Of a stretch of DNA of 45,309 bases, positions 18,015-21,328 are shown in pieces. Each line of letters starts with the position of its first letter. The stretch's first letter is position 1. The DNA is from Actinomycetota bacterium (lineage in GTDB: Bacteria; Actinomycetota; Actinomycetes; S36-B12): positions 1 through 45,309 of the forward strand of contig VGBL01000015.1 in assembly GCA_016870515.1 (NCBI GenBank), in the 5' to 3' direction. The notes beneath the pieces were generated by a model that saw only the letters and a list, made by a program, of their open reading frames with translations, did no database searches and was not told the DNA's origin. Both the position numbers and the translations under genes were made by a program.

Positions 18015-18087
18015 TGGAGGCTAGGGGACTCGAACCCCTGACTTCTGCCTTGCAAAGGCAGCGCTCTACCAACTGAGCTAAGCCCCC
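18015..18087 (-). tRNA. tRNA-Ala(UGC)
   Basis: A 73-base cloverleaf. The acceptor GGGGGCT pairs with AGCCTCC and contains the G3-U70 wobble pair, the main identity element for alanyl-tRNA synthetase. The anticodon loop is TTTGCAA with anticodon TGC, and the T-loop is TTCGAGT. CCA is not encoded: after discriminator A73 the sequence goes straight into the frnE pseudogene. Confidence 0.97.
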
Positions 18088-18408: not shown

Positions 18409-18438
18409 GCAGCGTCAGCGCTTAGGCGCTGACGCTGC
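18409..18438. terminator. 13-bp stem hairpin downstream of DLW-39 gene
   Basis: GCAGCGTCAGCGC (18409-18421) pairs perfectly with GCGCTGACGCTGC (18426-18438) around a four-base loop TTAG. It sits 5 bp past the stop of the DLW-39 gene on the minus strand, the expected position for a terminator of the tRNA-Ile/DLW-39 transcript. No long T-run is present. Confidence 0.75.
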
Positions 18439-18443
18439 TGTAA

Positions 18444-18569
18444 CTACGTGAGGTCCGGGACCGAGGTCGCCTCGGTCCACAGGTCGTCCTCGGCGCGGCT
18501 CGCCATGACCTGGCGATAGACGAGGTAGCCGATACCGGCCAGGGCGACGACGAGCAATAGTTTCTTCAT
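18444..18569 (-). CDS. DLW-39 family small protein
   Basis: A 41-residue protein: MKK, a single hydrophobic helix (LLLVVALAGIGYLVYRQV), then ASRAEDDLWTEATSV with the DLW motif that names this small actinobacterial family. It is probably a single-pass membrane protein of unknown function. Its ATG begins one base after the 3' end of tRNA-Ile, leaving no room for a ribosome binding site on a processed transcript. A strong hairpin follows 5 bp after the stop. Confidence 0.88.
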   Translation of the reverse strand: MKKLLLVVALAGIGYLVYRQVMASRAEDDLWTEATSVPDLT

Positions 18570-18570
18570 G

Positions 18571-18645
18571 TGGGCCTAGGTGGACTTGAACCACCGACCT
18601 CTTCCTTATCAGGGAAGCGCTCTAACCGAGCTGAGCTATAGGCCC
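18571..18645 (-). tRNA. tRNA-Ile(GAU)
   Basis: A 75-base cloverleaf. The acceptor GGGCCTA pairs with TAGGCCC, the D-arm is GCTCAGCTCGGTTAGAGC, the anticodon loop is CTGATAA with anticodon GAT, and the T-arm is GGTGGTTCAAGTCCACC. No CCA is encoded. It lies downstream of DUF3566 and the membrane aminopropyltransferase-like gene, as in other actinobacterial origin regions. Confidence 0.97.
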
Positions 18646-18687
18646 CAAGCAGCCAACGTAGAGTACACAGCGACGGGGACGTTTGCT

Positions 18688-20736
18688 CTAGATTCTACGA
18701 ACCGGAGCACCCGACAGGTGACGGCGACCGACGAGCACGGCGGCGAGGTAGATCACGGCCGCGACGATGAGCAGGAAGCGGTAGCCGGTCAGCAGCGAGA
18801 GGTACTCCAGGCAGCCGCCGATCATGGCGCCGAAGAGATTAGCGGCGAAGGCGGCCGTCGGGTTGGCCGCCCCCTTGAACCGGGACGTGAAGTAGAGGTT
18901 GGCGCAGAAGATGGGGGCGAATGCCAGGATCACCGCCGCCAGTAGGCGCAGCGGCACCGGCAGGGTCAGCAGCCAGGCGTTGGGGATAAGCCAGGCAACG
19001 GCCAAGGAGATGAAGAGGCCCGCGATTATGGGGGCTCGCGGCACGGTGAAGCGGCGCGTCACCTCGATGGCACACAACACGGCGATCAAGACTCCAGCGA
19101 AGACAAGGGCGTTGACCAGCCACGTCGTGCCGAAGAGCAGCGCGAACGTCGTGATCGATCGCGTCTCGAGGAGCAGGAACGCCATGCCCATGAGGAACAG
19201 ATCCGCGTAGCCGCGCATTTGCCTCAGCGGACCCCCGACGACGCGAATCGCGATCAGGCAGACGCCCAGGATCAGCGCGATCACCAGCAGGTAGAGCCCG
19301 GGGATGGACGCGTTCTTGAGGTAGAGGAAGGGATGGTCATCTGCCGACGGCACGGGGATGTCCTCGCCGAGGGCGACGATTGCGTCACGTTCCCACACGG
19401 CCCCCGGCGCGCACACGGCATTGTCCGCAGACTTGCCGACCGCGATCACGGCCAGCGACTGCACGGCGGTGAATCGATCCAGGCAGGGTGCGTGACCGAA
19501 GACGCCCTCGACGGTGCCCGCCAGGCGATTGATGAGCCAGTCCTCGCGGTAGTAGTTGTACATCGCGAAGACGCCGTCGGGGCTGAGGTGGTCGTATGCC
19601 TCCTGGATCGACTCCCGCGTGAAGAGGTAGGACTCCAGTCGCAGCTGGCTCGCGCCCGAGACGAGGGTCAAGGAGTCCGGCAGGGCGAAGAGGATGAGGT
19701 CGTACTCGTGGTCCGTGCGCGAGAGGAACGCGCGGCCATCGTCGATGTAAACACTGACCCTCGGGTCGGCGTAGGGCTGGTTGGGGTTCTTCTCGACGCC
19801 GATCTGCTGGATGCGCGGATCGATCTCGACGGCATCGACGCTCTGAGCCCCTCGCTTCAGCGCCAGCGCGACATCGGTGCCGGTGCCCGCCCCGATGATG
19901 AGCACGCGGCCCAGTGGATTGTCGACAGCGCGCTCGTAGGGGCGCCCATACATCGGCTCCATATCCAGGCGCTTATTCGCATCGAGCACGTTTTGGTGCG
20001 GGATGCCATTGACCTGGATGGCCGTCCACGGACCCGACTCCTCGCTCACGTAGTCCTGGGTCGTCACCTTGTAGTACGGCGACCACGAGACACCTGGTGC
20101 GACCGACTCCAGCACCAGGATGACGATGATGGCGGCACTCGCGATCCACGACAGCACGGGCAGTCGGCGGCCATAGAGCAGGATCAGCGTGACGAGCATG
20201 ACCGATGGCCAGACCCATGACGGCGCACGCAGGAACGAGATCACGGTGAAGAGCAGGGTGCCGCCGATCGAGCCAACGATGTCCCAGCGATAGGCATCGA
20301 GGGCGGTGAACTCGATGAACGCGCGGCCCGTGATCTCACCGAGACTGGTCATGGCTAGGGCCACGACCACGAAGACCAGTGGCAGCGTGACCCACGTGGG
20401 CAGGCCCGTAGGTCGCACCTCGGTGAAGAAGATCAGGTCGGTGGACGACCCCTCGATCTTCGCGGGGAAGACGGTGATGAAGGCGACGAGGACGAGCACG
20501 GTGATCGGCGCGTAGCGGCCGAAGTCGAAGGAACGACGAGCCCGCAGGAATCCCAACCCGATGCCGAGGAAGGCCGCCAGCAGGATCAGATTGGAGAAGT
20601 AGGACAGGTGGACGAGGTTTGCCCCCGACCATCGGATGAGGGCAAGTTGCACAAATAGCATGAGGCCGCTGGCAGCAACGAGACGGACACGGGCCGGGAG
20701 AAGGACCGCGCGCGGCGTCGTTCCGGTCGCGGTCAC
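18688..20736 (-). CDS. Membrane protein with spermidine-synthase-like domain
   Basis: A 682-residue protein. The N-terminal third has about seven membrane helices. The middle third is a Rossmann methyltransferase/aminopropyltransferase-like domain with LIIGAGTGTDVALALKRGA (motif I), VDAVEIDPRI and VSVYIDDGRAFLSR. The C-terminal third is again membrane-embedded (five or six helices). GTG 20736 was chosen; the longer frame overlaps the DUF3566 gene without similarity. Membrane-fused spermidine-synthase-like proteins are widespread but poorly characterised, so polyamine synthesis is not proven. It is 22 bp downstream of the DUF3566 gene. Confidence 0.8.
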   Translation of the reverse strand: MTATGTTPRAVLLPARVRLVAASGLMLFVQLALIRWSGANLVHLSYFSNLILLAAFLGIGLGFLRARRSFDFGRYAPITVLVLVAFITVFPAKIEGSSTDLIFFTEVRPTGLPTWVTLPLVFVVVALAMTSLGEITGRAFIEFTALDAYRWDIVGSIGGTLLFTVISFLRAPSWVWPSVMLVTLILLYGRRLPVLSWIASAAIIVILVLESVAPGVSWSPYYKVTTQDYVSEESGPWTAIQVNGIPHQNVLDANKRLDMEPMYGRPYERAVDNPLGRVLIIGAGTGTDVALALKRGAQSVDAVEIDPRIQQIGVEKNPNQPYADPRVSVYIDDGRAFLSRTDHEYDLILFALPDSLTLVSGASQLRLESYLFTRESIQEAYDHLSPDGVFAMYNYYREDWLINRLAGTVEGVFGHAPCLDRFTAVQSLAVIAVGKSADNAVCAPGAVWERDAIVALGEDIPVPSADDHPFLYLKNASIPGLYLLVIALILGVCLIAIRVVGGPLRQMRGYADLFLMGMAFLLLETRSITTFALLFGTTWLVNALVFAGVLIAVLCAIEVTRRFTVPRAPIIAGLFISLAVAWLIPNAWLLTLPVPLRLLAAVILAFAPIFCANLYFTSRFKGAANPTAAFAANLFGAMIGGCLEYLSLLTGYRFLLIVAAVIYLAAVLVGRRHLSGAPVRRI

Positions 20737-20758
20737 CCCGGCACGGTAGCGCGAACGA

Positions 20759-21328
20759 CTAGAAGGCGTCGGTAAACGTGACCTCGACACCGCCGGTAAT
20801 GCCGACCGTGAGGTTATAGAGCACGGCGAATATGCCGGCCAGGATCGACACGAGGACGATCTCAAATGCGGCCACGACGACGGCGATCCCCATGACGCGG
20901 TCGAATGCGAGCACTGCCTCGAGGTCGAAGGTCGTCGTGCCCGAACCGATCACCTCGTCGACATTGCGCGCCATCGTGGCGATGACCCCGCTGTAGTCGA
21001 GGAGGTACCAGGCACCGGCCACAGCGGACACGATGACGATCGCCATTGCCACCGACAGCATGAATGCGACCTTCATCACCGACCACGCGTCGAGGCGATA
21101 GACGTAAAGTCGCGCGCGCCTGGGAGCGCCTCGCGCCTTGCCGCGCAGTGCTGCCTTTGGTGCGTGACTGACCACGGGCGGCGAAGGCGGCGGCGCCTCG
21201 AGCACAGGCGGGATTCCCACTACCGGGGTCGCGTCGCGACTGCTCACCTTGTCGAGGGTGCGCCCTATCGGCGTAGGCGACACGGGCCCCTCGGCGGGGG
21301 TACCGGTCACCGCGCTGCTGGACACCAA
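20759..21328 (-). CDS. DUF3566 transmembrane protein
   Basis: A 189-residue protein. A Pro/Ala-rich cytoplasmic N-terminal half (residues 1-65) precedes RRARLYVYRLDAWSVMKVAF, the DUF3566 entry motif, and two membrane helices separated by an extracytoplasmic loop, with FAVLYNLTVGITGGV near the C-terminus. It is the direct counterpart of the protein encoded after gyrA in mycobacteria and streptomycetes. The function is unknown. It starts 30 bp after the gyrA stop and is probably co-transcribed. Confidence 0.92.
   Translation of the reverse strand: MVSSSAVTGTPAEGPVSPTPIGRTLDKVSSRDATPVVGIPPVLEAPPPSPPVVSHAPKAALRGKARGAPRRARLYVYRLDAWSVMKVAFMLSVAMAIVIVSAVAGAWYLLDYSGVIATMARNVDEVIGSGTTTFDLEAVLAFDRVMGIAVVVAAFEIVLVSILAGIFAVLYNLTVGITGGVEVTFTDAF

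Follow-up and report, generated by a model that had tools for sequence, protein, structure and literature searches.

In human and insect mitochondrial DNA, the 5' end of an mRNA directly abuts the 3' end of a tRNA, an arrangement named tRNA punctuation, and the enzyme that acts there is ELAC2/RNase Z. The classical position of the RNase Z cut lies directly after the discriminator base. Bacteria also have operons of tRNA and protein genes, such as those of tufB and metY-nusA, in which the downstream genes possess leaders and Shine-Dalgarno sequences. The term tRNA punctuation for the mitochondrial case is found in the reference list of PMC4633059. For mycobacteria, an ATG or GTG at the 5' end has been described as sufficient for leaderless translation (PMC6448022). 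According to RNA maps of Cutibacterium (P.) acnes, cuts within the 3' CCA triplets of tRNAs are always located between the Cs, no obvious tRNase Z is present in this organism, and the responsible enzyme, which was left unidentified there, might also cut CCA-less tRNAs (PMC3848588). In S. coelicolor, too, the cut lies between the Cs in most of the 12 tRNAs with an encoded CCA (PMC4681348). A search of titles and abstract openings, which covered part of the literature, returned no report of a bacterial mRNA start that is made by a tRNA 3' cut.

The tRNA-Ile/DLW-39 locus

The window, i.e., the whole analysed stretch of 45,309 nucleotides of an actinobacterial contig, carries on its minus strand gyrB, gyrA, a DUF3566 gene, a spermidine-synthase-like gene, tRNA-Ile(GAT), DLW-39 and then tRNA-Ala(TGC), which is followed on the same strand by a cyclophilin, a rhomboid, a CrgA and a TrpG/PabA-type gene (Table 1). 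The order tRNA-Ile, DLW-39, tRNA-Ala is conserved, and in the window 356 nt separate the DLW-39 stop from tRNA-Ala (ARAGORN coordinates). The tRNA-Ile(GAT) is the sole copy among the 40 tRNA genes located in the genome. On the minus strand the junction reads TAGGCCC-A(18571)-C(18570)-ATG(18569-18567). Rfam places tRNA-Ile at 18645-18571 and ends it with the discriminator A, while the span of ARAGORN is 18570-18645 because this program adds the following C. The first-pass annotation had placed the discriminator at 18571 and the DLW-39 ATG at 18569-18567, and these coordinates are exact by sequence and by Rfam. Besides the -10 candidate listed in Table 1, an alternative one, TACGTT, is located 9 nt upstream of tRNA-Ile. 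The spermidine-synthase-like gene (18688-20865) between the DUF3566 gene and tRNA-Ile is large and has hydrophobic stretches; it ends 42 nt before tRNA-Ile, and the candidate tRNA promoter is inside this gap.

Table 1. Features at the tRNA-Ile/DLW-39 locus (positions in the window).
Feature	Position	Strand	Basis or remark
tRNA-Ile (anticodon GAT), positions 1-73	18571..18645	-	Rfam RF00005, 73.5 bits; ARAGORN
C74, the one base that separates discriminator and start codon	18570	-	most likely belongs to the tRNA as the encoded first C of its CCA
DLW-39 family small protein, 41 aa, proposed leaderless frame	18444..18569	-	NCBIfam NF038356; purifying selection
Candidate -10 box TACTCT for tRNA-Ile/DLW-39, 14 nt upstream of the tRNA	18660..18665	-	consensus match only
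13-bp GC-rich hairpin just past the DLW-39 stop; possible terminator	18409..18438	-	fold; without U run or 3' protection
tRNA-Ala (TGC), next tRNA downstream	18015..18087	-	ARAGORN, Rfam; own -10-like TAGCAT

The 41-codon reading frame matches the NCBIfam model of the "DLW-39 family protein" with an E-value of 1.4e-15 and 56.9 bits (cut-off 24). From its sequence, the protein has a short hydrophobic N-terminal segment, a conserved DLWxEAT motif and a charged tail. Among relatives with the same junction the median dN/dS is 0.10, with values below 1 in all 75 usable within-genus pairs (two further pairs gave no usable dS), and therefore the DLW-39 gene is real. The hairpin after the stop codon folds with 13 pairs at -30.5 kcal/mol and a z-score of -5.56. 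It had been taken for a strong terminator that closes a two-part unit. The hairpin itself is real, but this claim is weak, as a U run is absent, a terminator scan at the hairpin gave 0 sites, and of the six congeners with foldable downstream sequence (window not counted) just two, G417 and G426, show a comparable hairpin.

Spacing and recurrence of the junction

The search of the order for the DLW-39 family comprised 166 genomes, 118 of them with the gene, and 120 places were read, of which 119 have a readable start; the one dropped is an incomplete second DLW-39 copy without a start (G403, L149). At 42 of these 119 places, in 13 genera and two families, the discriminator is followed by C and directly by ATG or GTG. 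This junction is present in nine of the 13 gene-bearing genera of the window's family and in all four genera of a second family, f86. Counted per genomes with the gene, it occurs in g1 (8/8), g247 (3/3), g248 (2/2), g249 (1/1), g250 (5/5), g251 (2/2), g256 (8/8), g259 (4/4) and g255 (2/12), and within f86 in g271, g275 and g276 (1/1 each) and in g277 (4/4). The other genera of the order have a larger spacing or lack a tRNA-Ile within reach. A tRNA-Ile is located upstream at 101 places, with a distance past C74 of zero at 42, of 1-21 nt at none and of at least 22 nt at 59. Since the interval of 1-21 nt is empty, the spacings point to two working states and not to drift. From this distribution and from the independent occurrences described below, the one-base junction is judged not to be a product of chance.

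Two genomes assigned to different genera, G401 and G415 (L034, L036), are identical in their DLW-39 region and almost so in gyrA. Either metagenome-assembled genomes (MAGs) may have been cross-contaminated or one genus misassigned, and g249 may therefore be a contamination. At one locus (L129, G468:C18) DLW-39 is present twice, with some 1.6 kb between the copies and a tRNA-Ala after either one. In some members of g247, g251, g255 and g256 and in one f86 genome, only 6-19 nt lie between DLW-39 and tRNA-Ala, and -10-like hexamers precede several of these tRNA-Ala genes. A tricistronic unit that extends into tRNA-Ala is unsupported for the window, and in g256 -10-like boxes are found ahead of tRNA-Ala in seven of eight cases.

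Outside the order, the junction was absent from all 92 further places of the class or phylum, which derive from the phylum sample with follow-up (32) and from class genomes (60) and include the probable false matches L030 and L031; it is thus not required for DLW-39 function. The 60 class genomes were sampled from at least 264 with a match. None of them has the junction, 58/60 have a Shine-Dalgarno sequence, and no spacing is shorter than 25 nt; the retrieved sequence included a tRNA-Ile in 21 of these 60. The first-pass annotation had proposed to compare the spacing across actinobacteria. In the order the one-base spacing indeed recurs (42/119), but outside the clade the distance is at least 22 nt, with a Shine-Dalgarno sequence or an own leaderless promoter, and therefore the link between tRNA-Ile and DLW-39 is lineage-specific with independent recurrences and not general to actinobacteria.

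Moreover, an exact-pattern scan for the junction in about 85,000 species (genome_contigs) gave 43 matches, all 43 of which open DLW-39 proteins. Most are MAGs titled Nanopelagicales or Actinomycetota, and three lie outside: Nocardioides sp. SYSU D00038 (L315), N. flavescens YIM 123512 (L340, Propionibacteriales) and a Bifidobacteriaceae MAG (L313). The junction proteins of Nocardioides and Bifidobacteriaceae score 36.8-55.9 bits against NF038356, and all three loci have the gyrA/tRNA-Ala neighbourhood as far as the contigs reach. Both Nocardioides junctions are at contig ends, which calls for caution, yet they come from two assemblies. Four MAGs titled Bifidobacterium breve (L300, L302, L338, L341) have a DLW-39 and a junction identical or nearly identical to those of g259 in the window's family and look mislabelled. 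On a gyrA tree of 30 genomes, in which many forks are unresolved, the junction state needs five changes, two of them forced by well-supported branches, and a single evolutionary origin is thus rejected.

Initiation signals, base 74 and the processing enzyme

A Shine-Dalgarno sequence was called from a canonical tetramer or a duplex of -6 kcal/mol or better, and a TANNNT 5-8 nt before the start codon was taken as the -10 box of a leaderless promoter. Neither signal is present at any of the 42 junction places (0/42 each). The median Shine-Dalgarno duplex is -1.8 kcal/mol there compared to -7.7 kcal/mol at the other 77 places, 57 of which have a Shine-Dalgarno sequence and 22 a TANNNT box, with both in seven and neither in five cases. 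The start codons at the junctions are exclusively ATG (20) and GTG (22). The cases with an own -10 box are confined to g252, g255, g257 and the f87 genus g283, and the first three of these genera (e.g., L052, L103, L137) are neighbours of junction-bearing ones. Since such boxes are found in g252, most of g255, g257 and g283, a leaderless DLW-39 mRNA made by a promoter is a likely state in this clade, and g255 contains the own-promoter as well as the tRNA-abutting state. The DLW-39 start thus appears to be organised in three ways in the clade: with a leader and a Shine-Dalgarno sequence, with an own and probably leaderless promoter, or abutting a tRNA. Ahead of tRNA-Ile, a TANNNT is located 5-25 nt upstream at 28 of the 42 junction places, compared to 14% in mononucleotide shuffles, and a promoter-like -10 is missing there at the remaining 14 of 42. 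Inside the tRNA-Ile gene of the window, a simple sigma-70 scan returned no promoter-like site.

T-loop matches served to locate the 40 tRNA genes of the genome (window and L154-L193). Base 74 is C in all 40, CCA is encoded in only six, and base 75 is mixed (C 14, G 12, A 8, T 6). An ARAGORN bias as the cause of C74 was discarded, since the program recovers every one of the 40 when this position is changed to A, G or T. Across the order, C74 is present in 102 of 102 tRNA-Ile and 109 of 109 tRNA-Ala genes. In seven other genomes of the class (seven of 14, among the matches listed), it is present in 132 of 150 T-loop matches with a base 75 other than C, and the 18 exceptions are T-loop matches that may not all be tRNAs. 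The genome also encodes a CCA-adding enzyme of the actinobacterial type (757 bits). An encoded N73-C74 makes sense, because a cut after C74 would leave the rest of the CCA to this enzyme. As C74 is encoded in 40/40 genes and the published cuts fall between the Cs, C18570 is probably part of the tRNA; with a cut between the Cs in this genome too, the A of AUG would be the first base of the DLW-39 mRNA. The leader is thus probably zero and not one base long, and the one-base leader of the first-pass annotation is probably wrong. A possible second tRNA-abutting gene is located at L172:150-411 (G000:C8), where an ATG two bases past C74 of a tRNA-Ala(GGC) opens the frame MAHLLVIGDSLAFHGPEKAV..., for which no Pfam match was obtained over the 62 aa available.

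RNase Z, which had been named as an example of the processing enzyme, is unsupported in this role. The best matches of the genome to TIGR02651 reach 26.2 and 20.6 bits against a cut-off of 292.95 and are weak metallo-beta-lactamase (MBL) matches: an MBL segment in an 879-aa reading frame and a 243-aa MBL frame that scores highest against lactamase-type models. In the order, RNase Z exceeds the cut-off in 0/85 genomes, as judged by one model and at 96.7% completeness, and an RNase Z of divergent sequence may therefore exist; in the control, matches were obtained in 14 of 14 known genomes and exceeded the cut-off in nine. Two better matches in relatives score higher as the cyclic nucleotide phosphodiesterase NF041851, itself below the cut-off of that model. 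Canonical RNase Z was rejected as the processing enzyme on these grounds, and this detail of the first-pass annotation is probably wrong as well.

Proposed mechanism, rival explanations and known systems

Read from the DNA, the junction is exact, it is conserved in this group of freshwater-type actinobacteria and recurs in some distant relatives, it lacks other initiation signals, and C74 is present in every located tRNA gene of the genome. It can be assumed with fair confidence that tRNA-Ile and DLW-39 are co-transcribed and that the tRNA 3' cut after C74 frees a leaderless mRNA that starts at AUG or GUG. Both genes would be transcribed as a single short unit, and the 3' end of the tRNA would be matured by an endonuclease that cuts after C74. 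The nucleotidyltransferase would then complete the CCA on the cut tRNA-Ile. The downstream product would be a leaderless mRNA with the start codon as its first three bases, on whose 5'-terminal AUG or GUG ribosomes would initiate as known for actinobacterial leaderless mRNAs. DLW-39 synthesis would thereby be tied to the production and maturation of tRNA-Ile. As tRNA-Ile(GAT) is the sole copy among the 40 tRNAs, this model would couple DLW-39 mRNA rigidly to the supply of tRNA-Ile. Co-transcription, the cut and its position, leaderless initiation and the coupling are inferences from the DNA. It would speak against them if the 3' ends of tRNAs were generated solely by exonucleases, since these would destroy the mRNA and not free it. 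The leaderless tRNA-mRNA unit of the first-pass annotation has thus been retained, given the fixed junction, the lack of a Shine-Dalgarno sequence and of a -10 box (0/42 each) and the -10 ahead of the tRNA in 28/42, but the leader length, the enzyme and the generality were changed. A wider proposal, which is possible but put forward tentatively, is that tRNAs of actinobacteria are cut after C74 by an endonuclease that has yet to be named, and that several lineages convergently set the DLW-39 start at this cut. This would be a bacterial counterpart of mitochondrial tRNA punctuation, with one leaderless mRNA for each maturation of the sole tRNA-Ile(GAT). The dosage of DLW-39 would then depend on tRNA-Ile synthesis, and the cleavage position of the enzyme could be told from the junction in the DNA alone.

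Alternatively, an RNase Z-like or RNase E-like enzyme might cut between the discriminator 18571 and C 18570 and leave a one-base leader, which we regard as unlikely. A cut after the discriminator would agree with the classical RNase Z position. Furthermore, M. smegmatis RNase E cleaves on the 5' side of the cytidine in RN|CNU (PMC10641625), and the corresponding letters of the junction are A|C-A/G-U; leaders of up to 5 nt count as leaderless in M. smegmatis (PMC6448022). However, a C74 encoded in 40/40 tRNA genes is hard to explain if it is always removed, and the encoded CCA of two other actinobacteria is cut between the Cs (PMC3848588, PMC4681348). The RNase E motif, moreover, wants a purine two bases before the cut, where C72 stands in all 42 junctions, and for RNase Z no genome of the 85 exceeds the cut-off. 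Translation might also proceed from an uncut or otherwise processed co-transcript, with tRNA maturation and DLW-39 translation just competing. Co-transcription alone would indeed yield the RNA, and many actinobacterial leaders have no Shine-Dalgarno sequence (PMC6448022), but the start codon would be located beside the folded acceptor stem, a Shine-Dalgarno sequence is found in 0/42, and the exact spacing and the empty interval of 1-21 nt would stay unexplained, which makes this very unlikely.

It is even less probable that tRNA-Ile and DLW-39 abut just as a consequence of genome compaction, with no function attached. The genomes of the clade are small (mostly about 2-3.6 Mb), but f87, the family of the order with the strongest reduction (1.0-2.1 Mb), has retained a distance of 22-58 nt together with a Shine-Dalgarno sequence in almost every case. 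Compaction would also predict a spread of short spacings, of which 1-21 nt are never seen, and the junction recurs in Nocardioides and Bifidobacteriaceae. Least likely, by a small margin, is an own DLW-39 promoter inside the tRNA gene, by which the leaderless transcript would be a primary one and the tRNA would merely happen to supply the promoter. The sister genera g252, most of g255 and g257, together with g283 of f87, do have a -10 box of their own at 5-8 nt ahead of the start codon (22 places), but TANNNT at this distance is found in 0/42 junction places, the letters of the acceptor stem vary (TAGGCC, TGGGCC, TATGCC) and follow the pairing of the tRNA, and the sigma-70 scan gave no site. 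With no -10 box and an empty scan, this promoter was discarded as the main reading, although an own DLW-39 transcript made by a promoter of unusual type retains a small probability.

If a cut after C74 makes the DLW-39 mRNA, a processing step of stable RNA would create the translation start of a bacterial mRNA, tRNA maturation would be linked to the output of a conserved small membrane protein, and tRNA punctuation would not be peculiar to organelles. Which enzyme makes actinobacterial tRNA 3' ends without RNase Z, and where it cuts, is a question on which the 5' end of the DLW-39 mRNA should report, and the junction is present in a named strain, N. flavescens YIM 123512. The observation of the first-pass annotation is correct, and as a tRNA/mRNA junction that recurs with exact spacing and predicts where the cut would fall, it is more interesting than first stated.

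Like in mitochondrial tRNA punctuation, the DLW-39 start abuts a tRNA 3' end at the DNA level, and the tRNA 3' cut would make a leaderless or nearly leaderless mRNA. Unlike in mitochondria, a single bacterial small-protein gene with a putative own upstream promoter is concerned, the tRNA on its 3' side is non-adjacent in the window, and for ELAC2/RNase Z, which acts in mitochondria, a clear counterpart is missing in this order. With tufB and metY-nusA the locus shares the predicted common transcript of a tRNA and a protein gene, but it leaves no room for a leader or a Shine-Dalgarno sequence. Similar to the leaderless mRNAs of M. smegmatis, M. tuberculosis, S. coelicolor and P. acnes, AUG or GUG would be located at or near the 5' end without a Shine-Dalgarno sequence; these known mRNAs have a promoter -10 box just before the start, whereas the 5' end of the DLW-39 mRNA would come from RNA processing. 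The cut maps of P. acnes and S. coelicolor concern CCA-encoding tRNAs and, in the available parts of these papers, make no mention of a resulting mRNA (PMC3848588, PMC4681348). Nevertheless, cuts between the Cs of CCA as in these two organisms would explain the encoded C74 and predict a cut exactly before the DLW-39 start codon.
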